From the NCBI RefSeq assembly GCF_023556315.2, contig NZ_CP116221.1, positions 3,858,001-3,922,000 on the forward strand: a DNA stretch of 64,000 nucleotides, written 5' to 3'. Position numbers and translations under genes: made by a program. The notes under the pieces are model-generated. The model did not search any database. It was given only the letters and a program-made list of their open reading frames with translations, and was not told the DNA's origin. The DNA comes from Psychroserpens ponticola (GTDB lineage Bacteria; Bacteroidota; Bacteroidia; Flavobacteriales; Flavobacteriaceae). How positions within the stretch are numbered: the first letter of the stretch is position 1; each line of letters starts with the position of its first letter. Positions 7,682-36,844 of the stretch are shown here, piece after piece.

Positions 7682-7712
7682 AATATTAATCTTATATATT
7701 AATTAGTAACCT

Positions 7713-7887: not shown

Positions 7888-7901
7888 GGTTAATTAGTAA
7901 T

Positions 7902-7943
7902 AAAGGAATAACTTAAACTTAGGTTTGTGTTATTCTTTTTTTT
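7902..7943 (+). terminator. Rho-independent terminator after the S74 gene pair
   Basis: The stem GAATAAC (7906-7912) pairs with GTTATTC (7929-7935), with an inner AAAC/GTTT extension, and is followed by eight T residues (7936-7943). It sits downstream of the palindrome and ends the 3381-7681 transcript. Confidence 0.75.
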
Positions 7944-8108
7944 AGTTATATACCCAATTATCAACGAATTCTATACCATCTTCAACGAATTCTAGAAGCG
8001 TCCAAATTTTACTCCAAAACCAATATACATTTGAAGTATCAAACAAGTATAAACCCATAAAAACAAATCATTATGAGAACTTTAAAGAACACCCAAGAAA
8101 ACAAAACA

Positions 8109-8795
8109 ATGTCTACTTCAAAAAGAATAGTACAAAGCCTTTTAATTGTAGCTGTATTATTTATTGCATCAGATGTATTTTCACAAACTAAAGAAGTCGA
8201 ATTTGATGTCTACACAACATCAGCAACAAAAGCATCAAAATATTTATTAGCAGATGATGTTGCACTTCGTGATTGCCCTTCAGTACAATGCGAACAATTA
8301 ACAACCATAAATATTGGAACCAATGTGAGATTGTTAGCAAAGAGCGAAACACCACATACCATAAACGGAATTAAAAGCAAATGGTATAAAGTAAAAATGG
8401 GTTCGCAAATCGGATGGATTTTTGGAGGAATGATCTCTCAAAAAACAATGGTAAGTAACACCAATCCAGAAATAAGATTTGTTTTTGGTGAAGCTGGATT
8501 TGATTTTAAAGGAAATAAACAATTTCAAGTAAGAGCTTTAAAAAATGGAATTCAGGTCGATAAAATTGTATTCCAATCAGAGCGATTAAGTCATGCTAAT
8601 ATTACATTATTGAATCAAAAAGACAAGAAATCAACAGTAGATGTTATTACACTTAATAATACATTAGATGCTGCATCTTACATTGTATTTAAAAATAATA
8701 AACTTCAAAAAACGAACACTTTAGTTGCTAGTAACATGACTAAACCAATATACACTGGCTTGTCATATGTGTTTTGCGAAGGAGAAGAAAATTAA
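8109..8795 (+). CDS. Secreted bacterial SH3-domain protein
   Basis: A 228-aa exported protein of unknown specific role. The start at ATG 8109 is chosen because a standard signal peptide follows at once (MSTSKRIVQSLLIVAVLFIA, cleaved after VFSQ). An in-frame ATG at 8073 would add a 12-residue extension before it and remains possible. Residues about 45-110 form a bacterial SH3-like fold: LADDVALRDCPS, then GTNVRLLAK, then KWYKVKMGSQIGWIFGGMI. The pattern of a conserved WxKV strand followed by GW is typical of SH3_3 domains, which bind peptidoglycan or other ligands. The C-terminal half has no recognisable domain. The gene stands alone with a strong terminator after it. Confidence 0.75.
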   Translation: MSTSKRIVQSLLIVAVLFIASDVFSQTKEVEFDVYTTSATKASKYLLADDVALRDCPSVQCEQLTTINIGTNVRLLAKSETPHTINGIKSKWYKVKMGSQIGWIFGGMISQKTMVSNTNPEIRFVFGEAGFDFKGNKQFQVRALKNGIQVDKIVFQSERLSHANITLLNQKDKKSTVDVITLNNTLDAASYIVFKNNKLQKTNTLVASNMTKPIYTGLSYVFCEGEEN

Positions 8796-21524: not shown

Positions 21525-22229
21525 ATGAAATTCATAAAACGGTTCTTTAAATTCATCTTCAAAACAATATTTTGGCTTTTTGTCCTTTCTATTGTTGTAG
21601 TTGTAATTTTTAAATGGGTTCCAGTACCGATGACATCTTTAATGGTTATCCGTAGTATTGAACAGACAGATGATAATATAAAAGGTTGGAAACATGATTG
21701 GGTTCCTATTGAAGAAATCTCTACCAATTTGCAATTAGCCGTTATTTGTAGTGAAGATCAAAATTTTTTGAAGCATCATGGATTTGATATTAAAGCCATT
21801 GAAAAAGCTTACGAGAATAATAAAAATGGAAAAAAAATAAAAGGAGCGAGTTCTATTTCACAACAAACAGCAAAAAATGTATTTCTATGGCCAAACCGAA
21901 GCTGGTTACGAAAAGGCTTAGAAACCTATTTCACTTTTATAATTGAACTTATTTGGAGTAAAGAGCGCATCATTGAAGTTTACCTCAATAGCATAGAAAT
22001 GGGACCAGGAATATATGGTGCAGAAGCTGCATCTCAATATTGGTTTAAGAAATCTGTATCAAAATTAACTAAATATGAAGCAGCAGCTATTGCATCAATT
22101 TTACCCAATCCATTACGTTACAAGGCGAATCCAGCAACACCTTATATTGAAGGTAGAAAGGCTTGGATTGTCAGGCAAATGGGTTATTTCGGGCCATTAA
22201 ATTATCCAAATCGATATGACAAAGAATAG
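21525..22229 (+). CDS. mtgA: Monofunctional biosynthetic peptidoglycan transglycosylase
   Basis: Polymerises lipid II glycan chains at the inner membrane. 234 aa: one N-terminal TM (about 8-28, FKTIFWLFVLSIVVVVIF), then a GT51 domain with the catalytic Glu in SEDQNFLKHHGFD, the GASSISQQTAKNVFLW motif and EVYLNSIEMGPGIYGAEAA. No transpeptidase domain, as expected for MtgA. The next gene starts 14 bases before its stop, so the two are translationally linked. Confidence 0.93.
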   Translation: MKFIKRFFKFIFKTIFWLFVLSIVVVVIFKWVPVPMTSLMVIRSIEQTDDNIKGWKHDWVPIEEISTNLQLAVICSEDQNFLKHHGFDIKAIEKAYENNKNGKKIKGASSISQQTAKNVFLWPNRSWLRKGLETYFTFIIELIWSKERIIEVYLNSIEMGPGIYGAEAASQYWFKKSVSKLTKYEAAAIASILPNPLRYKANPATPYIEGRKAWIVRQMGYFGPLNYPNRYDKE

Positions 22230-22674
22230 CATAAAAAATGACTTATATAGTCAGTGTCAGGCATTTGTTGATTGTCGCTTAAAAGCGATTCAAAAAACAA
22301 TTGATGAAATTCAAGAATCTTTAACCTCAGAAACTAAAAGTTCTGCTGGAGATAAACATGAAACTGGTCGAGCAATGTTACAATTAGAACGTGAAAAAGC
22401 AGGACAGCAATTGGCTGAAATACAGAAATTAAATCAATTATTGCCTAAAATTGATGTGTCAAATAATTCTGAAATTATCGGTTTAGGAAGCTTGGTTTAT
22501 ACATCTCAAGCTAATTATTTTATCGCCATAAGTGCTGGAGAATTAAAAGTAAATAATCAATCGTTTTATGCGATTTCTGCAAATACACCTATTGCTAAAT
22601 TACTCTTAGGGAAACTAAAAAACGATGAAATTATATTTAGAGATCAGGAGTTCAAAATTATTAAGATATTATAG
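22216..22674 (+). CDS. GreA/GreB-like protein (coiled coil plus C-terminal FKBP-like domain)
   Basis: A 152-aa cytoplasmic protein: an N-terminal helical coiled-coil half (residues 1-80, with SAGDKHETGRAMLQLEREKA), then a beta-rich domain with AISANTPIAKLLLGKLKNDE. That last segment matches the GreA/GreB C-terminal consensus SPxxxxLLGKxxGD. The acidic tip typical of true GreA is not evident, so it may act on RNA polymerase without cleavage stimulation. Bacteroidota relatives are often labelled 3-oxoacyl-ACP synthase in databases, which nothing in the sequence supports. It overlaps mtgA by 14 bases and precedes the YceI gene by 36 bases. Confidence 0.7.
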   Translation: MTKNSIKNDLYSQCQAFVDCRLKAIQKTIDEIQESLTSETKSSAGDKHETGRAMLQLEREKAGQQLAEIQKLNQLLPKIDVSNNSEIIGLGSLVYTSQANYFIAISAGELKVNNQSFYAISANTPIAKLLLGKLKNDEIIFRDQEFKIIKIL

Positions 22675-22710
22675 ATTTAACCTCAATCATTTTCAGTGTA
22701 TCTTTATTAA

Positions 22711-23250
22711 ATGAAAAAGAAAAAAATCACACTTGTATTATTTACCAGTTTCCTGCTTTCCGTTGTTGGGTTTTCTCAGGATTTGGTTGCTAAGTCTTCA
22801 GTAGCATTTAAAATTAAAAATTTAGGGTTCAATGTAGAAGGTTTCTTTTCTGAAATTAATATAGAAAGCAATTTTTCAGATGATGATATTTCGCAATGGA
22901 CATTAATAGGAAATGTTATTGTCAATTCTATTAGGACTAACAACGAAAAGCGTGATGTACATCTTCTAAAAGACGACTTTTTTGACGTTAAAACGTTTCC
23001 TAAAATAGTATTAATGGCAACGAATTTCAAGAAGACTTCCCTAAATAAATACGATGTTACATTTAGTTTAACTATAAAAGAAACGACTAAAAAGATTACA
23101 ATTCCCATGTTAATTATCAATAATAAAGATGCACTTCAATTGACATGTGATTTTGAAATTAACAGACGCGATTTTGATGTTGGTGGTAATAGTTTAGTAA
23201 TGTCAAAAACAGTAAAAATTGCTGTTAGTCATACTGTAAAAAAACAATAA
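22711..23250 (+). CDS. YceI-like lipid-binding periplasmic protein
   Basis: A 179-aa exported protein: signal peptide (MKKKKITLVLFTSFLLSVVG, cleaved near GFSQ), then a YceI-type lipocalin-like barrel. Typical pattern: SSVAFKIKNLGFNVEGFF, then VNSIRTNNEKRDVHLLKDDFFDV and FPKIVLMA, then the final strands with FEINRRDFDVGG. Family knowledge: YceI proteins bind polyisoprenoid or other long lipids in a hydrophobic tube. The next gene starts just one base after the stop, so it is the likely first gene of the polyketide operon. A role in carrying the lipophilic product is inference. Confidence 0.82.
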   Translation: MKKKKITLVLFTSFLLSVVGFSQDLVAKSSVAFKIKNLGFNVEGFFSEINIESNFSDDDISQWTLIGNVIVNSIRTNNEKRDVHLLKDDFFDVKTFPKIVLMATNFKKTSLNKYDVTFSLTIKETTKKITIPMLIINNKDALQLTCDFEINRRDFDVGGNSLVMSKTVKIAVSHTVKKQ

Positions 23251-23251
23251 A

Positions 23252-24391
23252 TTGAGTACACGTCTTTCGTCTTTTGATGTTATAATTGTTGGAGGTGGAT
23301 TGGCAGGTTTATCAAGCGCTATTCATTTGTCAAATGCAGACCTGAGTGTTTTAGTTATTGAAAAAAACAGCTATCCAAAGCATAAAGTTTGTGGTGAATA
23401 TATCTCTAATGAAGTACTACCTTATCTTCAATTTCTAGATATTGACGTCTTTAAATTAGGTGCAAAAAGGATTGATAAATTTCAATTGTCTACAACAAAA
23501 AGCAAATTGATTTCTTCAAGATTATCCTTAGGTGGTTTTGGAATTAGTCGGTTTTGTTTAGATCATACTTTAGCAATGAAAGCAGTTCAAGTTGGCTCAG
23601 AAATTATTCAAGATTCAGTTGAAGACATTCAGTTTTTTAATGACGAATTTTCTGTACAAACAAAAAATGATAAGCTATTTAAGGCAAAAATTGTAATTGG
23701 AGCCTACGGAAAACGTTCAAACCTCGACATCAAACTCAATCGGAAATTCATAAAACGTAAATCGCCATATTTAGCTGTTAAAACTCATGTAAAAGGAAAT
23801 TTTCCTGACGATGTTGTAGCATTGCATAATTTTGAAGGTGGATATTGTGGTGTTTCAAAAGTTGAAAATAATAGCATAAATTTATGCTACATTACTAATT
23901 TAGATGCATTTAAAGCCTACAAAGATATGGACGAATTTCAACATAAAGTGGTATTCAAAAACACCTTCCTTAAAACTGTTTTTAGTAGTTCAAACCCTGT
24001 TTTTGATGAGCCTTTAACCATAAGCCAAATCTCATTCGATAGTAAAAAACCTATTGAAAATCACATCCTTATGTGTGGTGATACAGCAGCTTTAATTCAT
24101 CCACTTTCGGGAAACGGAATGAGTATGGCAATACGAAGTGCCCAAATAGCTTCGATACTTATTATTAAATATTTTAATTCGAAAACTTACGATAGAGAAG
24201 CACTAGAAAAACAGTACCTTAGAGAATGGAATACAGCGTTTAAATGGCGTTTAAAAACGGGTCATATAATAGCGGATTTATTTAATCAACCCAAATTATC
24301 AGAGGTATTGATGCAAATCTTAAAATGGTTTCCAGGTATTTTGCCTTTTATTATAAAGCGAACGCATGGTAAAGTTATGAAAGTAGAATGA
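23252..24391 (+). CDS. FAD-dependent oxidoreductase of the geranylgeranyl-reductase/hydroxylase family
   Basis: A 379-aa flavoprotein. FAD-binding motif VIIVGGGLAGLSSAIHL near the N-terminus with IEKNSYPKHKVCGEYIS (the PxxKxCGE motif of the GGR-like family), and the second FAD motif MCGDTAALIHPLSGNGM near 275. The C-terminus has positive and hydrophobic stretches that could touch the membrane. The start is TTG 23252, one base after the YceI stop; no ATG lies closer. It shares an ATGA overlap with the methyltransferase gene. In this operon it probably hydroxylates or reduces the polyketide lipid, comparable to the flavoprotein of the Streptomyces srs locus (inference). Confidence 0.82.
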   Translation: MSTRLSSFDVIIVGGGLAGLSSAIHLSNADLSVLVIEKNSYPKHKVCGEYISNEVLPYLQFLDIDVFKLGAKRIDKFQLSTTKSKLISSRLSLGGFGISRFCLDHTLAMKAVQVGSEIIQDSVEDIQFFNDEFSVQTKNDKLFKAKIVIGAYGKRSNLDIKLNRKFIKRKSPYLAVKTHVKGNFPDDVVALHNFEGGYCGVSKVENNSINLCYITNLDAFKAYKDMDEFQHKVVFKNTFLKTVFSSSNPVFDEPLTISQISFDSKKPIENHILMCGDTAALIHPLSGNGMSMAIRSAQIASILIIKYFNSKTYDREALEKQYLREWNTAFKWRLKTGHIIADLFNQPKLSEVLMQILKWFPGILPFIIKRTHGKVMKVE

Positions 24392-25113
24392 ATTTATTAG
24401 TAAACACAAAACATAGAAGTGAGCAAAATGAAATCATGGACGATTTGAATTATAATGGCCCAATACTTCATGATGCACTTGATAAGCTCGCTAAAATAAA
24501 CCAATGGTTAGGAGGAAATAAAGTCACAATTAATGGACTTAAAAAAGTGCTCAAAAATCACCCAAAAAATGAGGTAATAACCATTATTGATTTAGGTTGT
24601 GGAGGAGGAGATATATTAAGAGACATCTCTGAGTTTGGTAAGAGAAATGGTTACCGATTTCACCTTATTGGAATAGACGCAAATCAACACACAGTAGATT
24701 ATGCCAATTCATTATCTGTAACCTATGATAATATTGATTTTAAAGCCATAGATATTTTTTCTGAAAGGTTTAATGAACTAAATTACGATTTAGTTTTAAC
24801 TACACTATTTTTGCATCATTTTAAAGAAAGAGTACTCCTGTCATTTTTAAAACCCGTTTTAGAGAAAGCAAAATTTGGAATCGTAGTTAATGATTTACAC
24901 AGACATAAACTCGCCTATTACTTGTTTAAATTGCTGTGTACCACTATAAAAAATAAAACAATTATTGAAGATGGATTAACTTCTGTGTTAAGAGGATTCA
25001 AACGGAAAGAGTTAATTGAAATGGCTCAACAATTGCATACAAATTATCAAATACAATGGAAATGGGCTTTTCGTTTCCAGTGGATTTTGAAGCATAAAAA
25101 ATATGAGTGTTAA
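24388..25113 (+). CDS. Class I SAM-dependent methyltransferase
   Basis: A 241-aa cytoplasmic methyltransferase. Motif I is IIDLGCGGGDIL (about 65-76) with the acidic residue GIDANQHTV after strand 2, motif II-like DLVLTTLFLHHF, and a later segment VNDLHRHKLAYYLFK seen in methyltransferases that adjoin type III PKS genes. The ATG at 24388 overlaps the upstream stop as ATGA, so translation is likely coupled; an internal ATG at 24436 is an alternative. The stop overlaps the PKS gene by 11 bases. It probably O- or C-methylates the polyketide; the site is not predictable from sequence. Confidence 0.82.
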   Translation: MNLLVNTKHRSEQNEIMDDLNYNGPILHDALDKLAKINQWLGGNKVTINGLKKVLKNHPKNEVITIIDLGCGGGDILRDISEFGKRNGYRFHLIGIDANQHTVDYANSLSVTYDNIDFKAIDIFSERFNELNYDLVLTTLFLHHFKERVLLSFLKPVLEKAKFGIVVNDLHRHKLAYYLFKLLCTTIKNKTIIEDGLTSVLRGFKRKELIEMAQQLHTNYQIQWKWAFRFQWILKHKKYEC

Positions 25114-26155
25114 GATCACATCAGTTGCAAAACAGCTGCCTAAATATACGAGAGAAACTAAGGATATTATTCCGTATTTAAAAATATGGATGTCTGGTCA
25201 AGAAGAACGATTTCAGCGGAAAGTTATTAAGCTTTTCGAAAATGCAGGAGTTGACAAACGCTATTCAATTATGGATGCTGAAGAGGTGTTTTTAAACACG
25301 TCATTTGAAGAAAAAAACGAAATTTATTCTCGTGAAGTAGTTAAATTAGCGGAACAATCTTTGGTCAAAGCTTTACATAAAGCTAATTTGAAACCAATAG
25401 ATATTGATTACATCATAACTGTGAGTTGTACAGGAATTATGATTCCGTCAATGGATGCTTATTTGATTAATAATCTCAAGATGAAGCAAGATGTTGTAAG
25501 GCTTCCTGTCACAGAAATGGGATGTGCAGCAGGTGTTTCTGGAATTATTTATGCAAAGAATTTTTTAAAATCAAATCCTAACAAACGCGCAGCAGTAATC
25601 GCTGTCGAATCACCAACAGCTACATTTCAACTAGATGATTTCTCTATGGCAAATATTGTTAGTGCAGCAATTTTTGGTGATGGTGCTTCGAGTGTTATTT
25701 TATCTTCTTATAAAAATGAAGAAGGCCCGAAAATAGTTGATGAAGCTATGTATCATTTTTATGATGCAGAAACTATGATGGGTTTTAAATTGACAAATAC
25801 AGGCTTACAAATGATTTTAGATAAAGCGGTTCCCGAAACAATTTCAGAGCACTTCCCTATGATAGTGCATCCGTTTTTAGTACAAAATAAAATCACAATT
25901 GAAGATATAGATCACCTCATATTTCATCCAGGAGGAAAGAAAATTGTACAAACTATTGAAGATTTATTCGGATCTTTAGGAAAGAATATAGACGACACTA
26001 AAAATGTACTTAAGTTGTATGGAAACATGAGTAGTGCAACCGTTTTATATGTTTTAGAACGCTTTATGGACAAACAACTGCCTAAAGGAGATAGAGGATT
26101 AATGCTAAGTTTTGGACCTGGCTTTTCGGCACAACGCATATTATTAGAATGGTAA
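25103..26155 (+). CDS. Type III polyketide synthase (chalcone/stilbene-synthase family)
   Basis: A 350-aa homodimeric condensing enzyme that extends a CoA- or ACP-borne starter with malonyl units and cyclises the product. The triad is intact: Cys141 in TEMGCAAG, His275 in IFHPGGKK and Asn308 in YGNMSSAT. The C-terminal GPGFS loop (LSFGPGFSAQ) is also present, and the length is normal for bacterial members. No carrier or other domain is fused. It is distinct from fabH (15982), which has AHQANKR. The gene overlaps both neighbours (11 bases upstream, 7 downstream). With a dedicated ACP, KAS and dehydratase in the same operon, a long fatty acyl starter is likely (inference). Confidence 0.93.
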   Translation: MSVKITSVAKQLPKYTRETKDIIPYLKIWMSGQEERFQRKVIKLFENAGVDKRYSIMDAEEVFLNTSFEEKNEIYSREVVKLAEQSLVKALHKANLKPIDIDYIITVSCTGIMIPSMDAYLINNLKMKQDVVRLPVTEMGCAAGVSGIIYAKNFLKSNPNKRAAVIAVESPTATFQLDDFSMANIVSAAIFGDGASSVILSSYKNEEGPKIVDEAMYHFYDAETMMGFKLTNTGLQMILDKAVPETISEHFPMIVHPFLVQNKITIEDIDHLIFHPGGKKIVQTIEDLFGSLGKNIDDTKNVLKLYGNMSSATVLYVLERFMDKQLPKGDRGLMLSFGPGFSAQRILLEW

Positions 26156-26946
26156 AAGAATTTCAAAATAAAAATTATTGGACACTCATTTTAGGAGGCT
26201 CTAGCGGATTAGGTTTAGCAACAGCCCAAAAACTTGCAAAACATGGTATGAATATTTGTATCATACATCGAAACTCGAGAGCCCAAGAAGATGAGATTAA
26301 TACTGAATTTAATAAAATTGTAGCTGAAGGCGTGCAATTCAAATCGTTTAATATTGACGCTTTCAAATCTGAAAAAAGAGAACAAATTATATCTGAATTA
26401 AAAATTGTATTTGGCTCACTTGGAAAAATAAGAACCTTAGTACATAGTGTTGCTAAAGGAAATTTAAAACCCATGTTAGATGATCAAAAACCAACACTTA
26501 AGACAGATGATTTCAATTTAACTATTAATGCAATGGCAATAAGTTTGTACGATTGGACAAAAGCGATTTTTGAAGCTAAATTATTTTTTGAAGATGCTCG
26601 AATTATTAGTTTCACAAGTGAAGGCAATACTAAAGCTTGGAAAAATTACGCAGCAGTTTCAGCAGCAAAAGTAACATTGGAAGCCATAAGTAGAAACATA
26701 GCTTTAGAGTTTGCTCCTTTTGGAATTAGAGCCAATTGCGTTCAGGCAGGAGTAACAGACACAGCATCTTTGAGAATGATTCCTGGAAGTGATAAAATTA
26801 AAGAACACAGTTTAAAACGAAATCCGTTTAAAAAATTAACACAACCTGAAGACGTAGCAAACGCTGTATATCTCTTGTCTAAAGACGAAGCATCTTGGAT
26901 TAATGGTTGTGTTATCCCTGTGGATGGAGGAGAACATATATCCTAA
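26149..26946 (+). CDS. SDR enzyme with FabL/FabI-like enoyl-ACP reductase signature
   Basis: A 265-aa short-chain dehydrogenase. Cofactor motif GGSSGLG near residue 16-22; active site Tyr167-x6-Lys174 (NYAAVSAAK). The six-residue spacing is the enoyl-ACP reductase hallmark; classical ketoreductases have Tyr-x3-Lys. HSVAKG at 99-104 resembles the SVGFA loop of FabI. The C-terminus has the SDR end motif INGCVIPVDGG. It most resembles B. subtilis FabL (enoyl reductase III). The start overlaps the PKS stop as ATGGTAA. It probably reduces the enoyl chain of the starter acyl group. The operon has no clear ketoreductase, so FabG from primary metabolism would be needed. Confidence 0.8.
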   Translation: MVKEFQNKNYWTLILGGSSGLGLATAQKLAKHGMNICIIHRNSRAQEDEINTEFNKIVAEGVQFKSFNIDAFKSEKREQIISELKIVFGSLGKIRTLVHSVAKGNLKPMLDDQKPTLKTDDFNLTINAMAISLYDWTKAIFEAKLFFEDARIISFTSEGNTKAWKNYAAVSAAKVTLEAISRNIALEFAPFGIRANCVQAGVTDTASLRMIPGSDKIKEHSLKRNPFKKLTQPEDVANAVYLLSKDEASWINGCVIPVDGGEHIS

Positions 26947-26964
26947 TTATAAATTAAAACTAAA

Positions 26965-26993
26965 TGTCACCTTGAGCGCAATCGAAAGGTCTT
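26965..26993 (+). repeat. Intergenic repeat copy (forward) inside the polyketide operon
   Basis: TGTCACCTTGAGCGCAATCG then AAAGGTCTT belongs to the TGTCACC-TCGAGCGCAGTCGA-GAGGT type of Bacteroidota intergenic repeat. It lies in the 65-base gap between the SDR and FabZ-like genes. A related copy in inverse orientation lies at 28726-28753. Confidence 0.6.
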
Positions 26994-27011
26994 TAATAAT
27001 TAATATTTTAA

Positions 27012-27449
27012 TTGAACAGCAATCAAATCATAGCTTTATTACCCTATCAAGAACCATTTTTGTTTGTTGATGAGTTAACCGAAATATCTTCGGAAGGCAT
27101 AACAGGAAACTTTACCTTTAAAGAAGATGCCTTTTTTTACGAAGGACATTTTAAAGACAATCCAATTACTCCTGGTGTAATTCTTACAGAGTGTATGGCT
27201 CAAATTGGTGTTGTGTGTTTAGGAATTTATATAATGAAAGATGAACTTTCAGAACAAAATCATCCGCAAATAGCATTAACCTCTAGTCAAATGGATTTCT
27301 TTTTACCCGTGTTTCCTGGAGAAAAAGTTACTGTAGTTTCTGAAAAAGAAGTCTTTCGTTTCAATAAGTTAAAATGTAATGTGAAACTTTTTAATGAGAA
27401 AGAAGAATTAATGTGTCGTGGTATGATTTCAGGAATGCTAAAATTATGA
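27012..27449 (+). CDS. FabZ-like 3-hydroxyacyl-ACP dehydratase (hotdog fold)
   Basis: A 145-aa cytoplasmic hotdog protein. It has LLPYQEPFLFVDEL at the start and the catalytic segment GHFKDNPITPGVILTECMAQ with His46 and Glu60, the FabZ/FabA pair. The start is TTG 27012: no ATG lies between the repeat element and the conserved LLPYxxP motif. The gene overlaps the KAS start as ATGA. It probably dehydrates beta-hydroxyacyl-ACP on the operon's own ACP. It is a second FabZ-type enzyme, apart from the lpxC-fabZ type expected elsewhere in the genome. Confidence 0.85.
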   Translation: MNSNQIIALLPYQEPFLFVDELTEISSEGITGNFTFKEDAFFYEGHFKDNPITPGVILTECMAQIGVVCLGIYIMKDELSEQNHPQIALTSSQMDFFLPVFPGEKVTVVSEKEVFRFNKLKCNVKLFNEKEELMCRGMISGMLKL

Positions 27450-28714
27450 AAAATAGAGTCGTCATTACAGGATTGGGAGTTGTAGCGCCAAATGGAGTTG
27501 GTCTCGATGCATTTTCTAAAGCGATTAAAAAAGGTAAATCAGGAATTACCTTTCATCAACAATTAGCCGACTTAAATTTCTCGTGTTGCATTGGTGGAAT
27601 TCCTCATATTTCAGAAGAAAAGAAACTCGAATATTTAACACCTTTACAATTAAGAGGATTCAATAGCTCAGGAATTTTATATGGCTGTATGGCAGGAATT
27701 GATGCTTGGAAAGATGCTGGATTTAATATAGAAACTAACAGTGAATTAGATTTTGATAGCGGAACTGTTTTCGGAACAGGAACTTCTGGTGTTGAGAAAT
27801 TCAGAGAAGCGATTTATAAACTAGATGATAATCAAGTAAAACGTTTAGGAAGTACTGTTGTTGTGCAAACTATGACAAGTGGAATCAGTGCATTTTTGGG
27901 TGGGATTTTAGGCTTAGGAAACCAGGTTACAACGAATTCTTCAGCATGCACCACAGGAACCGAAGCTATTTTGATGGGTTATGAACGTATCAAAAATGGT
28001 CAAGCGAAACGAATGTTGGTTGGAAGTTGTAGTGATGGTGGACCCTATATTTGGGGTGGATTTGATGCCATGCGAGTCATGACTTATAAACACAATGATT
28101 CTCCTAAACAAGGCTCGAGACCAATGAGTGCATCAGCATCAGGATTTGTTCCTGGAGCAGGAGCAGGAGCTTTGGTTTTAGAATCTTTAGAGAGTGCTCA
28201 AGAACGAAGTGCAACTATTTATGCTGAGGTTTTAGGAGGACATATTAATTCGGGAGGACAACGTAATGGAGGAACGATGACTGCTCCAAATGCTGAAGCA
28301 GTTCAGCGTTGCATTAAAGAAGCTATTGTAAATGCTAATATTTCAGCAAATGATATTGATGTTATTAATGGTCATTTAACAGCAACTTCAAAAGATAGCC
28401 TTGAAATAGAGAACTGGACGATAGCTTTGAATAGAAAAGGCGACAACTTTCCTTTTATTAATTCCTTGAAATCAATGGTTGGCCATTGTTTAGCTGCTGC
28501 TGGAAGTATTGAAAGTGTAGCAACTATTTTGCAATTAAAAGAACAATTTGTGTTTCCAAATAGTAATTGTGAGGATGTACATGATGAAATTTCCGAATTA
28601 ATTTCTGAAGATAAAATTGTCAAACAATTAATGCATACCGAATTGAATATTGCAGCAAAAGCAAGTTTTGGGTTTGGTGATGTGAATGGTTGTGTTATCT
28701 TTAAAAAGTATTGA
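27446..28714 (+). CDS. Beta-ketoacyl-ACP synthase (FabF-like)
   Basis: A 422-aa elongating condensing enzyme. Catalytic Cys168 in SSACTTGTEAI, His310 in INGHLTATSKDS and His347 in SMVGHCLAAAGS. The first His motif reads GHLTAT instead of the usual AHGTST, which marks a divergent subfamily; all three catalytic residues remain. The start is ATG 27446 (MKNRVVITGLGVVAPNG, the family start), overlapping the FabZ-like stop as ATGA; an ATG at 27413 is too far upstream. A possible role is elongation of the acyl primer used by the type III PKS. A repeat fragment lies after the stop. Confidence 0.88.
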   Translation: MKNRVVITGLGVVAPNGVGLDAFSKAIKKGKSGITFHQQLADLNFSCCIGGIPHISEEKKLEYLTPLQLRGFNSSGILYGCMAGIDAWKDAGFNIETNSELDFDSGTVFGTGTSGVEKFREAIYKLDDNQVKRLGSTVVVQTMTSGISAFLGGILGLGNQVTTNSSACTTGTEAILMGYERIKNGQAKRMLVGSCSDGGPYIWGGFDAMRVMTYKHNDSPKQGSRPMSASASGFVPGAGAGALVLESLESAQERSATIYAEVLGGHINSGGQRNGGTMTAPNAEAVQRCIKEAIVNANISANDIDVINGHLTATSKDSLEIENWTIALNRKGDNFPFINSLKSMVGHCLAAAGSIESVATILQLKEQFVFPNSNCEDVHDEISELISEDKIVKQLMHTELNIAAKASFGFGDVNGCVIFKKY

Positions 28715-28725
28715 AAAGATAACTC

Positions 28726-28753
28726 AAACCTCTCGACTGCGCTCGCGGAGACA
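28726..28753 (-). repeat. Intergenic repeat copy (reverse) between KAS and ACP genes
   Basis: Read on the minus strand it gives TGTCTCCGCGAGCGCAGTCG then AGAGGTTT, related to the copy at 26965-26993. The two copies bracket the FabZ-KAS pair in opposite orientations. Confidence 0.6.
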
Positions 28754-28765
28754 GTTTACAAAACT

Positions 28766-29020
28766 ATGACCAAAGACGAATTGATTGCCAAATTAAAAAC
28801 GATTGTAAAGCCTTACATTCAAGATAAAACTGCGTTTGATAACTTATCTGAAGACACAGATTTTATTAATGATTTAAAGATTAATTCTGCAAATTTAGTT
28901 GATGTTATTCTTGATGTTGAAGACGAATTTGATATTAGAATCGAGAATGATGATATGGAAAAAATGATATCAGTAAAAGCAGCTATGGATATTGTAAATG
29001 AAAAATTAGCTCAAAGATGA
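28766..29020 (+). CDS. Acyl carrier protein of the polyketide operon
   Basis: An 84-aa four-helix carrier protein. The phosphopantetheine Ser41 lies in KINSANLVDVIL (motif N-S-A rather than the D-S-L of FAS ACPs), followed by DVEDEFDIRI. Acidic overall and normal length. It would hold growing acyl chains for the KAS, dehydratase and SDR. The PPTase start overlaps its stop as ATGA, so holo-ACP formation is directly coupled. Confidence 0.9.
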   Translation: MTKDELIAKLKTIVKPYIQDKTAFDNLSEDTDFINDLKINSANLVDVILDVEDEFDIRIENDDMEKMISVKAAMDIVNEKLAQR

Positions 29021-29583
29021 TTGGAAATGACGTTGTAGATTTAAAGCAAGCAGCAAAAGATTCTAATTGGAAAAGACCTCGTTTTTTAGATAAAGTATTT
29101 ACACAAAAAGAGCAATCAATTATTTTTTATTCAGCAAACAAGGAACAAATGGTTTGGTTGCTTTGGAGTATGAAGGAAGCTGCGTATAAAGCTTTCGTAA
29201 GGGAATTTAAGCATTGCTTCTTCAACCCAAAACTAGCCGAATGTCAATTGGATTTAAACAATGAAGGTTTCGTTAGTATAAACGATAACACGTATTATTT
29301 AAAATCAACAATTACTTCAGAATATGTTCATAGTATAGCAAGTAATACAAATGAAAAATTTCCAAAAGCTGACCTTTTTAAATTGTATGATAATAATTTA
29401 AGTGACGAAGTCAGATCACGATTAATACATCAAGTCATAAATGGAAAAGATCGAGATATAAATTCAATTAATATTAAAAAGACAGTATTAGGAGTTCCAA
29501 ATGTGTTTTTAGGCAACCAACAAATTTTTGAAGCTTTATCAATATCTCATCATGGTAAATATGCTGCTTTTGCTATTTATTAA
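29017..29583 (+). CDS. 4'-phosphopantetheinyl transferase
   Basis: A 188-aa enzyme that transfers phosphopantetheine from CoA to the Ser of carrier proteins. The three superfamily motifs are present: MIGNDVVDL at the N-terminus (metal ligand Asp), WSMKEAAYKA (the WxxKEA motif, about 51-60) and SISHHGKYAAFA at the end (SHxxxxA). The length lies between AcpS and Sfp types. The ATG is inside the ACP stop (ATGA). It probably serves the operon's ACP; the genome likely has another for the FAS ACP. Its 3' end overlaps the convergent ABC ATPase gene by 11 bases. Confidence 0.85.
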   Translation: MIGNDVVDLKQAAKDSNWKRPRFLDKVFTQKEQSIIFYSANKEQMVWLLWSMKEAAYKAFVREFKHCFFNPKLAECQLDLNNEGFVSINDNTYYLKSTITSEYVHSIASNTNEKFPKADLFKLYDNNLSDEVRSRLIHQVINGKDRDINSINIKKTVLGVPNVFLGNQQIFEALSISHHGKYAAFAIY

Positions 29584-30555: not shown

Positions 30556-32997
30556 TTATTGCTTTATGAATTTTTGATTTCTAATCGTGTTGTCAGATAC
30601 AATACTGATGATATAGTTTCCGGCAGATAATTGAGATACATCAATTGACTTAGAATTACTTAATGAATTGGTCATCACACGTCTTCCGCTTATATCATAA
30701 ATATTGTAGAATGCATTTTCTAACTGTAAGCCAGTTGTAATATTTAAAACATTTTTAGTTGGGTTTGGCGACAAAATGAAATCATTAGCAAATACCTCTT
30801 CATCAACTCCGAGTGCGTCACAAGAAGAATCCCCTGCACCTTCAACAGCATTAAATGTTTTATTAATGTCTGGGTTTAAAAACACTTCACAAGGAGAGTT
30901 TGGCCAATACACAATGATATGATTAACACTATCGTCGTTTCCAAGTCCAAAATGTGTATTTAAAGTACTCATATATTCAAACCCTTCACCACTACGAACA
31001 TCTCTAATTTGGACACCACTATCAGTGTATATTTCTACACGAGCACCAATACCATCAATATTACTTGCAGTACCAACAGTGTTTATTTTAATCCAATTGT
31101 TACTCGTTGTTAAGTTCCAATAAATATTACCGCTATAATATGCATCAATAAATCCATCATTATTTAAATCACCAAAAGATCCATTTTTATAATTGATTTG
31201 AGTATCATCGGCATCTTCAAAAGTAAGATCACCTTTTCCATACATAATTGTTCCATTACATAGAATATCTAAAAACCCATCATTATCTATATCATAACTC
31301 ACATTTTCGTGACCATTCGAAGCTCCACTTACACCAGCACCAGTTGTTACATCTGTAAAAGAACCATCGCCATTATTACGCATAAGTTTATGATTTCCTG
31401 AGCTAGCACCAACAAAAACGTCCATGTCTCCATCGTTATCATAATCTGCCCAAGATGATGACCAAGTTTGCATAGGATCAGCAAGGCCTAAAGCGTTTGC
31501 ATTTTCTGTAAAAGTACCATCACCATTATTGGTAAGCATGACATTTGTTCTTCTAGCAGTTTCACCTCCACATTTAGCGATAAACATATCCATGTCTCTA
31601 TCGTTATCATAATCGATCCAAATAGAACCATAATTACCACCAGAATAATAGTCGCCTAAATTAAAAGGCGCATCTGGCGTAACGTTAGATTGATAAAACG
31701 TAAGGTTACCAGAACCATCATTTATATAATATACATTTGGCTCAACATCATGACAAACAAAAGCATCTAAATGGCCATCTTGATTGATATCAACAAAATT
31801 TGAACGTTGAGAAAACACATATTCACCAGTAGAGATTTCAGTAAAACCAGAACCAGTACCATCACTTTTCATAAATGTAACACCGCTTCCAGATCCATAA
31901 AGTAAATCGGTATAACCATCTTTATTAAAATCGGCCGCAGCCATACTCCAACCAGGTAAAAAGTCGGCACTAGGTGTTGGAATATCCACTTCGTTAAAAC
32001 CTCCAGAAGCTAATTGATAGTGTATGTTTACATTACTTGTAGATGCAGACACAATATCATCTAAGTTATCTCCATTCATATCCACAACAGTTAAGTCGTA
32101 ACCTCCAATACTGATAGCTTGAAGAGAGAAATCTACTCTAGAAGGAATTAATGTGGTAAAGTTTACGGGTCCCATCCAATTGCTAAAATCAGCTCCTCCA
32201 CAAAAGCCTCTTACATAGATTTCATAGGAAGTATTCTGAGTTAATCCGCTTAATACATGTGGATTATTAGTAGTTGTAGATGTTCCAGAGCCAGAAGGAA
32301 TACCAGTTCCAGGAGCTTGTAAAGCTATTTCCCAAGACGTTTCTACATCACCAGCATCCCAATATACATTGGCACCATCTGAAGAAATAAAAGTAACAGA
32401 TAGATCACTCACGTTTGGACAAGCAGGAGGTGTTTCAGACCTAATTAATGGAGAATTAAAACAAAATCCCCAACCAAATGAACCATTATCCTCATAAAGG
32501 ATACGATATTTAAAATTAGCTAATTGAGAAGCTGTAAAAGAAGCAATATTTATAGTTTCATTAACTTGTTCAGGAGTTCCATTACAAAAACCCGAATTTG
32601 GAGCGTTATTTGTTTCAGATAATTCTGAACCATAATCCTGCCAATTTCCAGCATCATTATCCCAATACTGTATGTTTAAATCTTCAGTTTGGAAAATATT
32701 AAATACATATGAGCCAGATACTGTAATCCAAGTTTCTCCTGCAGCATGAGCAGCAGTTAAATCAATGGTGTTAGATTCTGCAGCTAGATTATTGTTTGAA
32801 TCTCCACCTGGTAAGTCATCATTAAATGAGAAGTTTGATGAGTTGTCAGTTGGGTTGTCTGTAAAGTAGTCAGTATTTGCATCATAAGAACCAGTAATTG
32901 TCCAGTTATTGTTTGGCCAGTTTGCTGGTTCGTTTAAAACCTGAGCAACGGAACAATAAGAAATAATCAAACATGCTATTAATGTAATTTTTTTCAT
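30556..32997 (-). CDS. T9SS-secreted FG-GAP/ASPIC protein (short form)
   Basis: An 813-aa exported protein: signal peptide (MKKITLIACLIISYCSVAQ), a beta-sandwich region (about 20-190), a fibronectin type III domain (about 192-280), then FG-GAP/VCBS propeller repeats with calcium-binding DxNxDGxxD loops (about 285-600). After these come an ASPIC/UnbV domain (about 640-705, IGARVEIYTDSGVQIRDVRSGEGF) and a C-terminal type A T9SS sorting domain (FILSPNPTKNVLNI to IRNQKFIKQ). It is a surface-anchored or released adhesin- or enzyme-like cargo of unknown ligand. Its FG-GAP/ASPIC DNA is near-identical to the middle gene, with a constant offset of 3850 bases. Confidence 0.88.
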   Translation of the reverse strand: MKKITLIACLIISYCSVAQVLNEPANWPNNNWTITGSYDANTDYFTDNPTDNSSNFSFNDDLPGGDSNNNLAAESNTIDLTAAHAAGETWITVSGSYVFNIFQTEDLNIQYWDNDAGNWQDYGSELSETNNAPNSGFCNGTPEQVNETINIASFTASQLANFKYRILYEDNGSFGWGFCFNSPLIRSETPPACPNVSDLSVTFISSDGANVYWDAGDVETSWEIALQAPGTGIPSGSGTSTTTNNPHVLSGLTQNTSYEIYVRGFCGGADFSNWMGPVNFTTLIPSRVDFSLQAISIGGYDLTVVDMNGDNLDDIVSASTSNVNIHYQLASGGFNEVDIPTPSADFLPGWSMAAADFNKDGYTDLLYGSGSGVTFMKSDGTGSGFTEISTGEYVFSQRSNFVDINQDGHLDAFVCHDVEPNVYYINDGSGNLTFYQSNVTPDAPFNLGDYYSGGNYGSIWIDYDNDRDMDMFIAKCGGETARRTNVMLTNNGDGTFTENANALGLADPMQTWSSSWADYDNDGDMDVFVGASSGNHKLMRNNGDGSFTDVTTGAGVSGASNGHENVSYDIDNDGFLDILCNGTIMYGKGDLTFEDADDTQINYKNGSFGDLNNDGFIDAYYSGNIYWNLTTSNNWIKINTVGTASNIDGIGARVEIYTDSGVQIRDVRSGEGFEYMSTLNTHFGLGNDDSVNHIIVYWPNSPCEVFLNPDINKTFNAVEGAGDSSCDALGVDEEVFANDFILSPNPTKNVLNITTGLQLENAFYNIYDISGRRVMTNSLSNSKSIDVSQLSAGNYIISIVSDNTIRNQKFIKQ

Positions 32998-33151: not shown

Positions 33152-34775
33152 TCTGTTCAATAAATGATTACAGCATTATTGTTTTATCAATTTTAATGTT
33201 GATGTATTATTTTTCGCATAAACTTTTAAGAAATAAATAGCTGCATTTAAATGGCTAACATCAATTTGATTAAAATCAGCATTAATTGTTTTTATTAATT
33301 GGCCATTAATGTTAATAATCTCAATTTTAGTTAAATTTTCTGTATTTCCTTTAATGTATAGGGTATTCTTTACAGGATTAGGATAAAGTTTAAAAGAATT
33401 ACTTTCATAAGAAGCGATATCTAAGGTGGTCACACCAGCAGCAGCACAATCATAAGTGTCGTCTGTTATTTGCACTCCAGGGTTACCTGTACAATCTGGA
33501 GCACCAGCACCACCACAAGCTGTATAAAATTGATCTTGAAATACGCCATCATTATAGAAACACACATCAGCATCTTGACCAGCATTAACATATTTTATTT
33601 TAATATGAAACAGTACTTTAGGTGTTGCAGTAATTTGGATGTTAGGAATGTTACTAGCAATGAACGATTCGGAAAAATTTTGTTGAAAAGATAGTGACAC
33701 TCTAGAAGCGGTATTATCATTTTGGACAAAATCTTTATAAGCAGGAAGTGTAGCAAAATTACCTTCTAAAATAGAACCAGTAGGTTGAGAGTATTCAATA
33801 GCTCCATTTGAAGATATATTCCCACCAAAAGCTGCGGTATTATACTCAAAATAGACTTGCCCAGAACCTACATAGAAATCTTCTGTAGATGCAATTAAAA
33901 TATCTGCTTCATAAAAATTATCACTACCATCATTAGTAATTTGAGCATTAGCAAAAGTTAAAGTAAGGTTAGATTCTAATTGATCTTCATTAGATTCGCC
34001 AGACCTTTGAAATTGTTGACCACGTCCAATATTAGGATTAATTAAAGTGTTGACATCTGAATTTTGAATTTGTGCATTAGCATCCATATCCGCATTATTA
34101 TATCCAGAACCACCAATAAGTTGAATCACACCACTAGCATCCGAATTTTGTACTTGCTCATTTCCATCAAAATCACCTGTATACATTCCATATTTACCAT
34201 TAGCTAGAGCAACAACAGCATTGTTGTCACCTTCAACTGTGTTTGGGTTTGAAGCAAAATCAATAATTGATTTGGAAGGACTTAAAGCATGTGTTGTAGC
34301 ACTCATAACACCAAGATGGTTACGGTGTTTAATAGCGATGAAATAGTCGTCTTGATCTTGGTCAAAACCTAAGGCAGAGAGACCATCTACACCAACCACA
34401 TCACCATCACGTTGTAAAAGAGCAGATTGAGAATCAATAACAATAGAGTTATCGTTTTTATCTCTAAGTTCCACAAACACCCAATCAACAATAGCATCAT
34501 CACCAGTAGTATTAAACACAGAAGGGTCAGCGATTAAAGCATCAGCATAAGGGCTAGTAGTAGCATTAGAAGCTAACCAACCATTAAGTCTTAAATCATC
34601 ACGCATTAAGTTGTTTTCACCAGAATTAGGGTTTAAAGCGGCACCTTCTAAGTAAGCTATTGGAGATACGACACAACGAAAACCAGTACCTTCAACAGCA
34701 TTGAAAGGTTGATTTATAGGCGGATTTAAAAATGTTTCACCACCAGAGTTAGGCCAGTATATAGTAATATGTGAG
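33152..34775. repeat. Large near-identical duplicated block, copy 1 (3' module of the middle FG-GAP gene)
   Basis: About 1.62 kb matches 36935-38558 with a constant offset of 3783 bases. Only a handful of substitutions are visible, and the 24 bases after the stop codon are included. It encodes the linker, dockerin-like, cohesin-like and sorting modules. Confidence 0.92.
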
Positions 34776-36844
34776 ATACTAGTATCACTTCCAAGTCCAA
34801 AATGCGTATTTAAAGTACTCATATATTCAAACCCTTCACCACTACGAACATCTCTAATTTGAACACCACTATCAGTGTATATTTCTACACGAGCACCAAT
34901 ACCATCAATATTACTTGCAGTACCAATTGTGTTTATTTTAATCCAATTGTTACTCGTTGTTAAGTTCCAATAAATATTACCATTATAATAGGCATCAATA
35001 AATCCATCATTATTTAAATCACCTAAAGATCCATTTTTATAATTGATTTGAGTATCATCGGCATCTTCAAAAGTAAGATCACCTTTTCCATACATAATCA
35101 TTCCATTACAAAGAATATCTAAGTAACCATCGTTATCTATGTCATAGCTTACGTTTTCATGTCCAAGAGGCGCTCCACTTACACCAGCACCAGTTGTTAC
35201 ATCTGTAAAAGAACCATCGCCATTATTACGCATAAGTTTATGTGTTCCTGAGCTAGCACCAACAAAAACGTCCATGTCTCCATCGTTATCATAATCTGCC
35301 CAAGATGATGACCAAGTTTGCATAGGATCAGCAAGATCTAAAGCGTTTGCATTTTCTGTAAAAGTACCATCACCATTATTGGTAAGCATGACATTTGTTC
35401 TTCTAGCAGTTTCACCTCCACATTTAGCGATAAACATATCCATGTCTCTATCGTTATCATAATCGATCCAAATAGAACCATAATTACCACCAGATTCATA
35501 ATCACCTAAATTAAAAGGCGCATTTGGCGTAACGTTAGATTGATAAAACGTAAGGTTACCAGAACCATCATTTATATAATATACATTTGGAGCTACATCA
35601 TGACAAACAAAAGCATCTAAATGGCCATCTTGATTGATATCAACAAAATTTGAACGTTGAGAAAACACATATTCACCAGTAGAGATTTCAGTAAAACCAG
35701 AACCAGTACCATCACTTTTCATAAATGTAACACCGCTTCCAGCTCCATAAAGTAAATCGGTATAACCATCTTTATTAAAATCGGCCGCAGCCATACTCCA
35801 ACCAGGTAAAAAGTCGGCACTAGGTGTTGGAATATCCACTTCGTTAAAACCTCCAGAAGCTAATTGATAGTGTATGTTTACATTACTTGTAGATGCAGAC
35901 ACAATATCATCTAAGTTATCTCCATTCATATCAACAACTGTTAAGTCGTAATTTCCAATACCCATAGCTTGTTGAGAAAAATTAACTCTAGAAGGAATTA
36001 ATGTTGTAAAGTTTAAAGGTCCAATCCAATTGCTATAATCTGTTCCTCCACAAAATCCTCTTACATAGATTTCATAGGAAGTATTCTGAGTTAATCCGCT
36101 TAATACATGTGGATTATTAGTAGTTGTAGATGTTCCAGAGCCAGAAGGAATACCAGTTCCAGAAGCTTGTAAAGCTATTTCCCAAGACGTTTCTACATCA
36201 CCAGCATCCCAAAATACATTGGCACCATCTGAAGAAATAAAAGTAACAGATAGGTCACTTACATTTGGACAAGCAGGAGGTGTTACTGAACTTATTGTTG
36301 GAGAATTAAAACAAAATCCCCAACCATAAGATCCATTATCATTATAAAGGATGCGATATTTAAAATTAGCTAATTGAGACGCTGAAAAAGAAGCAATATT
36401 TATAGTTTCATTTGCTTGTTCAGGAGTTCCATTACAAAATGCTACATTTGGAGCATTAGCTGTCTGTGTTAATTCTGAGCCAAAATCTTGCCAATTTCCA
36501 GCATCATTATCCCAATACTGTATGCTTAAATCTTCAGTTTGATAAATATTAAATACATATGAGCCAGATACAGTAATCCAAGTTTCTCCTGCAGTATGAG
36601 CAGCAGTTAAATCAATGGTATTTGATTCTGCAGCGACAGTATTATCTGAATTTTGTCCTCCTTCATCATCATCAAAAGAAAAATTTGAACTCACTGTTGG
36701 ATTGTCTGTAAAAATAACTGGATCAGCGTCATAAGAACCAGTTATTGTCCAGTTATTGTTAGGCCAGTTAGCAGGTTCGTTTAAAACCTGGGCTAACGAG
36801 CAATAAGACATTACAAGAAATGTTAATAATGTAATTTTTTTCAT
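33176..36844 (-). CDS. T9SS-secreted FG-GAP/ASPIC protein with dockerin-like and cohesin-like modules (mosaic)
   Basis: A 1222-aa exported protein. Signal peptide MKKITLLTFLVMSYCSLAQ; beta-sandwich and FN3 regions, FG-GAP repeats and ASPIC domain as in the short paralog (about 1-710). It then has an extra C-terminal half: a segment DFDGNEQVQNSD...DMDANAQIQNSD (about 900-960) resembling calcium-binding dockerin repeats, a cohesin-like beta-sandwich (about 975-1110), and a type A T9SS sorting domain (KLYPNPVKNTLYI, final LKLIKQ). The N-terminal two thirds match the downstream paralog and the C-terminal third matches the upstream paralog, switching near 34775-34795. It is a gene-conversion product or duplicated mosaic. 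Confidence 0.88.
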   Translation of the reverse strand: MKKITLLTFLVMSYCSLAQVLNEPANWPNNNWTITGSYDADPVIFTDNPTVSSNFSFDDDEGGQNSDNTVAAESNTIDLTAAHTAGETWITVSGSYVFNIYQTEDLSIQYWDNDAGNWQDFGSELTQTANAPNVAFCNGTPEQANETINIASFSASQLANFKYRILYNDNGSYGWGFCFNSPTISSVTPPACPNVSDLSVTFISSDGANVFWDAGDVETSWEIALQASGTGIPSGSGTSTTTNNPHVLSGLTQNTSYEIYVRGFCGGTDYSNWIGPLNFTTLIPSRVNFSQQAMGIGNYDLTVVDMNGDNLDDIVSASTSNVNIHYQLASGGFNEVDIPTPSADFLPGWSMAAADFNKDGYTDLLYGAGSGVTFMKSDGTGSGFTEISTGEYVFSQRSNFVDINQDGHLDAFVCHDVAPNVYYINDGSGNLTFYQSNVTPNAPFNLGDYESGGNYGSIWIDYDNDRDMDMFIAKCGGETARRTNVMLTNNGDGTFTENANALDLADPMQTWSSSWADYDNDGDMDVFVGASSGTHKLMRNNGDGSFTDVTTGAGVSGAPLGHENVSYDIDNDGYLDILCNGMIMYGKGDLTFEDADDTQINYKNGSLGDLNNDGFIDAYYNGNIYWNLTTSNNWIKINTIGTASNIDGIGARVEIYTDSGVQIRDVRSGEGFEYMSTLNTHFGLGSDTSISHITIYWPNSGGETFLNPPINQPFNAVEGTGFRCVVSPIAYLEGAALNPNSGENNLMRDDLRLNGWLASNATTSPYADALIADPSVFNTTGDDAIVDWVFVELRDKNDNSIVIDSQSALLQRDGDVVGVDGLSALGFDQDQDDYFIAIKHRNHLGVMSATTHALSPSKSIIDFASNPNTVEGDNNAVVALANGKYGMYTGDFDGNEQVQNSDASGVIQLIGGSGYNNADMDANAQIQNSDVNTLINPNIGRGQQFQRSGESNEDQLESNLTLTFANAQITNDGSDNFYEADILIASTEDFYVGSGQVYFEYNTAAFGGNISSNGAIEYSQPTGSILEGNFATLPAYKDFVQNDNTASRVSLSFQQNFSESFIASNIPNIQITATPKVLFHIKIKYVNAGQDADVCFYNDGVFQDQFYTACGGAGAPDCTGNPGVQITDDTYDCAAAGVTTLDIASYESNSFKLYPNPVKNTLYIKGNTENLTKIEIININGQLIKTINADFNQIDVSHLNAAIYFLKVYAKNNTSTLKLIKQ

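Follow-up and report, generated by a model that had tools for sequence, protein, structure and literature searches.

Operons in which a type III polyketide synthase (T3PKS) is encoded together with a methyltransferase (MT) and a flavin adenine dinucleotide (FAD)-dependent oxidoreductase are known from several phyla. This trio occurs in pkqABC, linked to polyketide quinone in Mycobacterium and Streptomyces, and in srsABC (PMC9927152), in hidABC of cyanobacteria, for which a hierridin pathway beginning from a C14 acyl-acyl carrier protein (ACP) was proposed (PMC8086630), and in an MT-FAD-T3PKS operon of Planctomycetota, the polyketide synthases (PKSs) of which made alkylresorcinols on heterologous expression (PMC10896814). 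As far as these reports describe them, such trios yield methylated alkylresorcinols or quinones (PMC10896814, PMC9927152, PMC8086630). In the ars system of Azotobacter, a dedicated fatty acid synthase (FAS) feeds the T3PKSs and the acyl chain is handed over from a carrier domain of the FAS (PMC6274091). Here we analyze a stretch of 64,000 nucleotides from Psychroserpens ponticola (Flavobacteriaceae; contig NZ_CP116221.1, positions 3,858,001 to 3,922,000; the window), in which nine genes at positions 22711-29583 combine a trio of this kind with discrete proteins of type II fatty acid synthesis. With moderate confidence, we propose a phenolic-lipid operon in which a dedicated type II acyl cassette would serve a PKS that forms the head-group ring, with tailoring by MT and flavoprotein.

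The locus differs from each of these systems. Compared by description and not by sequence, pkq and srs come without FAS genes in the portions of PMC9927152 that deal with them, whereas the Psychroserpens locus has such genes, a Phe at the site of Trp281 of ArsB, a flavoprotein resembling the geranylgeranyl reductase (GGR) superfamily and a PKS with an ancestry unlike that of the Bacteroidota trio PKSs tested. The hidABC genes and the planctomycetal operon have another gene order, and no dedicated β-ketoacyl-ACP synthase (KAS), dehydratase (DH), ACP or phosphopantetheinyl transferase (PPTase) appears in the available descriptions (PMC8086630, PMC10896814). In an ars operon, a multidomain FAS of type I goes together with two PKSs (ArsB, ArsC); in Psychroserpens, the FAS proteins are discrete and of type II, they are accompanied by MT, flavoprotein and one PKS, and the C-terminal domain family of T3PKSs has a single match in the whole genome (one contig of 4.03 Mb). 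In the flexirubin/dialkylresorcinol (darAB) systems of Bacteroidota, the ring is made by DarB and DarA and no T3PKS takes part. Judged by its sequence, the locus is a new form of the known T3PKS-MT-flavoprotein operon type, distinguished by a type II acyl cassette of its own, predicted to be dedicated to the pathway, and by a PKS with a changed active site. As the initial annotation of this DNA had supposed, no characterized product of the cluster turned up in the literature searched. One conserved gene set of about a third of the sampled family can now be divided into core and accessories, with a likely step named for each part; its acyl module is linked to dialkylresorcinol loci, and this widespread operon is open to direct test.

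Gene content, distribution and conserved core

Nine complete open reading frames (ORFs), all on the + strand, span 22711-29583 of the window, and their coordinates and families are those given in the initial annotation:

22711..23250, +, yceI: YceI-like lipocalin of a periplasmic lipid/quinone-binding family, accessory (Pfam PF04264, 92.5 bits)
23252..24391, +, GGR: FAD-dependent oxidoreductase of the GGR superfamily with UbiH-like fold (TIGR02032, 110 bits, below the cut-off of 158.8)
24388..25113, +, MT: class I S-adenosylmethionine-dependent MT (NF004851/PRK06202, 130 bits, below the cut-off of 243)
25103..26155, +, PKS: T3PKS with Cys141/His275/Asn308, Phe228 and Met237 (Pfam Chal_sti_synt N and C)
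26149..26946, +, SDR: short-chain dehydrogenase/reductase of FabL/FabI type, probable enoyl-ACP reductase, Tyr167-x6-Lys174 (PRK08063 FabL, 147.5 bits, below the cut-off of 328)
27012..27449, +, DH: FabZ-like 3-hydroxyacyl-ACP DH, His46/Glu60 (PF07977, 51.4 bits)
27446..28714, +, KAS: FabF-like KAS, Cys168/His310/His347 (TIGR03150, 260.7 bits, below the cut-off of 493.75)
28766..29020, +, ACP: acyl carrier protein, phosphopantetheine Ser41 (PF00550, 23.2 bits)
29017..29583, +, PPTase: phosphopantetheinyl transferase, accessory (PF01648, 58.6 bits)

Several of the NCBIfam matches of these proteins score under the curated cut-offs. The PKS belongs to the type III enzymes by its chalcone/stilbene synthase N and C domains and its Cys-His-Asn triad, and the PPTase is one of two ACPS-family matches in the whole genome. 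Recalculation reproduced all overlapping or tight junctions listed previously (yceI/GGR +1, GGR/MT -4, MT/PKS -11, PKS/SDR -7, DH/KAS -4, ACP/PPTase -4), and two spaced junctions, SDR/DH (+65) and KAS/ACP (+51), which had gone unmentioned, complete the layout.

The distribution of the cluster was studied in 299 related genomes of Flavobacteriaceae from 236 genera, mostly one or two per genus, with an orthologue threshold of E < 1e-100 for PKS and cluster-type KAS alike. A PKS orthologue was present in 103 genomes, about one third, and all further matches were far weaker, with one at 1.4e-50 (30% identical) and the others at 1.6e-17 and lower. Among these genomes, which are not independent by descent, the cluster-type KAS was detected in 101 of the 103 PKS-positive and in none of the 196 PKS-negative ones, in support of the earlier idea that a dedicated acyl supply is tied to this PKS. 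Clusters with T3PKSs have been counted before and, according to the passages available from the respective reports, they make up 9% of the biosynthetic gene clusters (BGCs) of Flavobacteriaceae (PMC7440613) or 10.74% of 9,330 BGCs from 2,680 genomes of Flavobacteriaceae and Weeksellaceae (PMC10734526), occur once in each Aquimarina genome of one study (PMC9323603) and, in Reichenbachiella, resemble a known cluster by 4% or not at all (PMC10752948).

For the gene neighborhoods, 123 loci with distinct PKS DNA (identity of at least 50%) were collected, of which 14 with short flanks were set aside. Gene presence at the remaining 109 was scored by tblastn with identity thresholds of our choice and, all loci having been fetched via the PKS, the counts are fractions of PKS loci. 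GGR, MT and PKS adjoined each other in 109/109 loci, so that the srs-like trio recognized initially is a constant feature. Nearly as constant were DH (105), KAS (105), ACP (104) and SDR (93), followed by PPTase (86), a GreA-like ORF (67) and YceI (42). Across the 40 loci fetched first the gene order was maintained, bar genes that were lost, moved or split. GGR-MT-PKS-SDR-DH-KAS-ACP is thus the conserved core unit, and YceI and PPTase are accessory. The search for the nine-gene order that the initial annotation had suggested recovers this seven-gene order across the family and not a constant set of nine, and the YceI-like protein said to lead the set is encoded where it was reported but adjoins the core in a minority of the loci.

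In four loci, DH-KAS-ACP did not adjoin the trio: two genomes (G190 and G144) retain all three genes elsewhere, and in L101 and in L112, a contig of genome G138, they were not present in the stretch examined. In G150, a genome 86% complete, GGR and PKS are each broken into two ORFs (L071, about 5736-8669), which is a decayed or misread copy. Outside the family, the core set was encountered in three genomes of two other families, whole in G536 and without SDR in G375 and G428, with PKS identities of 71-73%, and transfer as a unit is the simplest reading.

The acyl cassette and its other settings

Alignments of the orthologues revealed intact active sites. As noted from the single sequence before, the PKS has its triad, and Cys141, His275 and Asn308 are invariant in 109/109 orthologues. 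In the cassette, Cys168 of KAS is present in 107/107 and His310 and His347 each in 106/107 (one gap), His46 and Glu60 of DH in 107/107, Ser41 of ACP in 106/106 and Tyr167-x6-Lys174 of SDR in 93/93; these residues of KAS, DH, ACP and SDR we take to be the catalytic ones. Enoyl reductases of the FabI/FabL kind are spaced Tyr-x6-Lys, whereas FabG has Tyr-x3-Lys, and the solved SDR closest in sequence is 3oic, an enoyl-ACP reductase. The SDR is therefore a probable enoyl-ACP reductase of FabL/FabI type, and the cluster would supply condensation, dehydration and enoyl reduction. A scan of the ten ORFs at 22216-29583 detected neither a ketoreductase (Tyr-x3-Lys SDR) nor a malonyl transferase, and these two functions must therefore come from the housekeeping synthase, so that "self-contained", as the operon had been called, does not apply. 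KAS, DH and SDR would make or lengthen a saturated fatty acyl chain on the cluster's own ACP, once this has been activated by the PPTase, with ketoreductase and malonyl transfer borrowed from housekeeping fatty acid synthesis.

In a sample of 395 genomes of the phylum, the cluster-type KAS (E <= 1e-70) was found in 38, namely in all 33 with a flavobacterial-type PKS and in five without. Two of these five, G394 and G675, belong to two other families and have SDR-DH-KAS-ACP-PPTase arranged back to back with a DarB locus; DarB scored 635 and 615 bits against a cut-off of 550, and DarH, examined in G394, scored 454 bits against a cut-off of 300. The gene preceding DarB, which has no library match, we take to be darA by its place and size. 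The other three genomes (L227, L228, L229) are from family f24, which we guess to be Balneola-like, and there DH-KAS-ACP is flanked by a GNAT-like ORF on one side and by a family-2 glycosyltransferase on the other, supported by Pfam matches in the one and the two loci tested, respectively. This region is possibly a lipid locus of a new sort. About 4 kb off, one of the f24 loci has a BioF/serine palmitoyltransferase-like gene that scores under the cut-offs.

The KASs of all cassette settings form one branch (23 rows; support 99/99). Nine KAS-like proteins from the four flavobacterial DarB loci fetched fall outside this branch, and these DarB loci have other KASs. By tree and neighborhood, the cassette is a portable unit for predicted chain building, two of whose other homes adjoin a resorcinol-lipid locus, and its place beside dialkylresorcinol genes supports a role in acyl supply. 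As it also stands in PKS-free settings, the KAS set is not confined to loci with this PKS. The initial annotation had reasoned that homologues consistently belonging to another pathway would speak against its proposal; when this was checked with the KAS, 0/101 in the family and 5/38 in the phylum sample were PKS-free, so that the set is portable, yet bound to the PKS within Flavobacteriaceae. The same counts bear on the view that the cassette is a mere neighbor serving another lipid while the PKS takes housekeeping acyl-ACP or acyl-CoA. This view would accommodate the five PKS-free KASs and also G138, where PKS, MT and FAD were present and no cluster-type KAS was found, but it leaves unexplained that no family KAS is PKS-free, that DH-KAS-ACP was kept after physical separation in two genomes and that two of the five other homes adjoin a resorcinol-lipid locus, and we consider it quite improbable.

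Whether the cluster could be a flexirubin variant was also considered and rejected, since no DarB over the cut-off exists in the window genome (best E 1.8e-9, 38 bits versus 550). In the family sample, 29 of 52 DarB-positive genomes were PKS-positive, which is above expectation (Fisher p 6e-4, uncorrected for relatedness), and the two clusters are therefore neither identical nor alternatives to each other.

Polyketide synthase ancestry, ring closure and candidate products

From the gene content, co-inheritance, intact catalytic residues and separate origins of the parts, all of which are established, we infer substrates, order of steps and product as follows. Acyl-ACP would prime the PKS, malonyl units (three for a resorcinol) would be added and the ring closed, the head being most likely an alkylresorcinol; the MT would then attach a methyl group either to the ring or to an oxygen, and the ring would be oxidized by the flavoprotein. 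The resulting methylated alkyl-resorcinol, -quinol or -quinone would be held in the envelope and in some species shuttled by YceI. Such a path from acyl-ACP via T3PKS to ring methylation and oxidation is the best supported one, by analogy with the srs/pkq/hid trios and with ars, and product, chain length and physiological role are predictions.

By sequence, the solved enzymes nearest to the PKS are Pks11, a tetrahydroxynaphthalene synthase and CylI, in this order. A structural model of the PKS (predicted local distance difference test score, pLDDT, of 82; alignment of 15 sequences) also matched Pks11 first, with template modeling (TM) scores of 0.88-0.90, and CylI next (0.84-0.87), and both these enzymes accept long acyl chains. 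A DpgA-like function was considered less likely, NF042429 giving just 166 bits versus a cut-off of 425.

For comparison, 33 distant Bacteroidota T3PKSs were drawn, mostly from the better-scoring ones, out of 138 other genomes with a match. MT and FAD neighbors were seen at 18 of their loci and neither partner kind at three; at the other 12, no MT or FAD was found and most had a short membrane ORF resembling isoprenylcysteine methyltransferase by eye, an ORF so annotated in a Stenotrophomonas plasmid match. Presumably, these latter operons are like the alkylpyrone genes bpsAB. Within 8 kb of the T3PKS, none of the 33 loci had cluster-like FAS genes (>60 bits), and among the loci examined the acyl cassette accompanies the flavobacterial-type PKS and not the other PKS type. 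The flavobacterial GGRs cluster with those of families f8 and f9 in their tree (support 99/93). In the MT tree, the flavobacterial proteins group with families f4-f9, and the sequences of these families are nested among the flavobacterial ones.

Several observations weigh against the phenolic-lipid proposal. The PKS tree splits the flavobacterial PKSs from all trio-type PKSs (100/100) and places them on the bps-like side, although this tree is unrooted and carries a long-branch warning. The PKS has Phe in place of the resorcinol-favoring Trp of ArsB, and its Glu138 and Pro171 occur in none of the 33 distant PKSs. Numerous other T3PKSs also reach TM scores of 0.83-0.87 with the PKS model and the fold therefore does not settle the substrate. 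GGR matches the PF01494 monooxygenase family with just 32.5 bits versus 162 bits for the one trio flavoprotein compared, that of family f24. Two PKS-positive genomes lack a detected cluster-type KAS, G293, with a PKS contig of just 4,634 bases, and G138, a draft in 130 contigs, and L101 has no cluster KAS in the stretch examined. Finally, darA and darB gave dialkylresorcinol in a heterologous host, as reported in the relevant part of PMC3992019, so that resorcinol makers do not strictly need the cassette.

The approximately unbiased (AU) test rejected the grouping of the PKS with f8-f10 (p 0.00105) or with f4-f10 (p 0.00025); these groups were chosen after the trees had been seen, and the tree contains no actinobacterial or cyanobacterial PKSs. 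A common descent of PKS, MT and flavoprotein from a class-level trio is thereby rejected for the PKS. From the split and the AU test, the PKS differs in its history from its MT and flavoprotein.

Plasmid records matching the PKS numbered 225, of which 30 were listed and one, bps-like, was inspected; for the flavoprotein there were 34, of which 20 were listed and three inspected, one being a Sphingobium trio and two lacking an adjoining PKS. The latter two, from Bernardetia (L221, 5947-7164) and Hymenobacter (L222, 4944-6128), are 41% and 35% identical to the flavoprotein of the window, and no gene annotated as a PKS is found in the displayed stretch around either of them; that of Hymenobacter comes after an isonitrile synthase-family gene and a TauD-family dioxygenase.

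The position on the bps-like side raises the question of whether the head could instead be a methylated alkyl-α-pyrone, formed by lactonization of a tri- or tetraketide, with the MT making a methyl ether or a C-methyl pyrone and the flavoprotein oxidizing chain or ring. In the PKS tree, the flavobacterial clade stands off the trio PKSs and on the side of T3PKSs that mostly precede the ORF resembling isoprenylcysteine methyltransferase by eye, whereas the MT and the FAD protein group with their counterparts from trios of the same class. Residues were mapped to Gly256/Phe265 of chalcone synthase by visual inspection of alignments with Pks11 and CylI, in what we take to be the chalcone synthase numbering. 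This mapping is consistent with the residues given for CylI and HidC in the text available from PMC8086630 and with the nine-residue spacing of ArsC 284/293 (PMC6274091). The site of ArsB Trp281 and ArsC Gly284 decides between resorcinol and pyrone, as far as PMC6274091 and PMC9927152 describe it. At this site, Phe228 is invariant in the 109-row alignment, and Phe is found in 18/18 flavobacterial PKSs examined versus Trp in 33/33 distant ones; Phe228 may be a new active-site variant of the resorcinol/pyrone switch. The exchange would suit a pyrone, as would the fact that the best sequence match in the PDB, Pks11, makes pyrones (PMC6274091). However, Phe shares its aromatic character with Trp, and it is to an aromatic side chain at this position that PMC6274091, in its account, attributes aldol closure as a proposal. 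Moreover, the bps-side enzymes themselves carry Trp (12/12) and the site therefore does not predict a pyrone. Met237 is common to the trio-type PKSs, whereas the 12 bps-like PKSs have Val or Ile there, and it is also the residue of trio-type and HidC-clade enzymes according to the section of PMC8086630 consulted. A pyrone head thus appears unlikely to us.

The product might also be a polyketide quinone, a second redox lipid beside menaquinone for low-oxygen respiration or antioxidant use, as in Mycobacterium and Streptomyces. The three enzyme kinds match pkqABC (PMC9927152), YceI lipocalins bind quinones (PMC9113575) and the T3PKS operon of 'Saltatorellus ferox' includes a gene for a lipid/isoprenoid-binding protein (PMC10896814), each as stated in the part of the report that was available. 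UbiA, of a quinone-pathway enzyme family, adjoins the T3PKS in 8/33 distant loci, 7/8 of these with MT and FAD. Most solved YceI structures hold ubiquinone-8 or other isoprenoids according to the corresponding part of PMC9113575, and the presence of YceI would fit a lipid or quinone product, though YceI occurs in just 42/109 loci; the cluster as a whole is absent from 196/299 genomes of the family sample. The flavoprotein could also reduce instead of oxidize. Its model (pLDDT 85.5) found flavin halogenases and 3nix as the best PDB folds, with quinone-pathway hydroxylases at ranks 13 and 18 and a geranylgeranyl reductase-like protein at rank 17, and since the fold scores are close, hydroxylation and reduction are both compatible. 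We regard a quinone with such a role as possible but rather unlikely. On a wider and decidedly speculative view, a polyketide quinone or quinol would be the second redox lipid of a third of the sampled Flavobacteriaceae. Its pathway would have arisen when a trio replaced its PKS by another and took up a portable cassette, one that would serve Bacteroidota repeatedly in making various phenolic or other special lipids. If so, the fatty tail of this compound would replace a prenyl tail, and UbiA is often beside the trio in sister lineages.

The distant loci in which UbiA prenyltransferase adjoins the T3PKS are L204, L206, L207, L209-L212 and L214. Their UbiAs form a distinct clade, 32-70% identical to each other, and may mark a second, uncharacterized quinone- or meroterpenoid-like cluster. 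A UbiA-linked prenylation in the window organism was considered and rejected; the sister-cluster UbiA matched nothing in the genome at E 0.001, in a search without a positive control of its own, and the loci of the four UbiA-family matches in the genome have no good match to it (best E 0.014).

Spacers and neighboring genes

The spacers at the two spaced junctions each contain one copy of a dispersed repeat, and two further ORFs precede yceI on the same strand:

26972..26990, +, SDR/DH spacer: one copy of the dispersed repeat, not belonging to the pathway
28728..28746, -, KAS/ACP spacer: one copy of the dispersed repeat, not belonging to the pathway
21525-22229, +, ORF read by eye, without a profile scan, as a transglycosylase
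22216-22674, +, GreA-like ORF (21.7 bits, far under the cut-off)

The repeat, GAGCGCAGTCGAGAGGT, has 31 copies in the genome at <=1 mismatch and its reversed pattern has none; at <=3 mismatches, the only copies of the longer repeat pattern in the window are those in the operon spacers. The two upstream ORFs overlap (-14) and the second ends 36 nucleotides before yceI (+36), and because of these ORFs the operon transcript may begin upstream of 22711. Scans for promoters (47 found versus 48.6 expected) and for terminators (4 versus 4.2) did no better than shuffles.

In the relative G207, the SDR/DH spacer has an ORF resembling a REP-associated transposase by eye (L039, 6690-7250), and small ORFs of other sorts occupy operon spacers in further relatives. 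Downstream of the operon, two adjacent and strongly similar large proteins that look secreted are encoded on the - strand (window positions 30556-32997 and 33176-36844), by eye an apparent tandem duplication.

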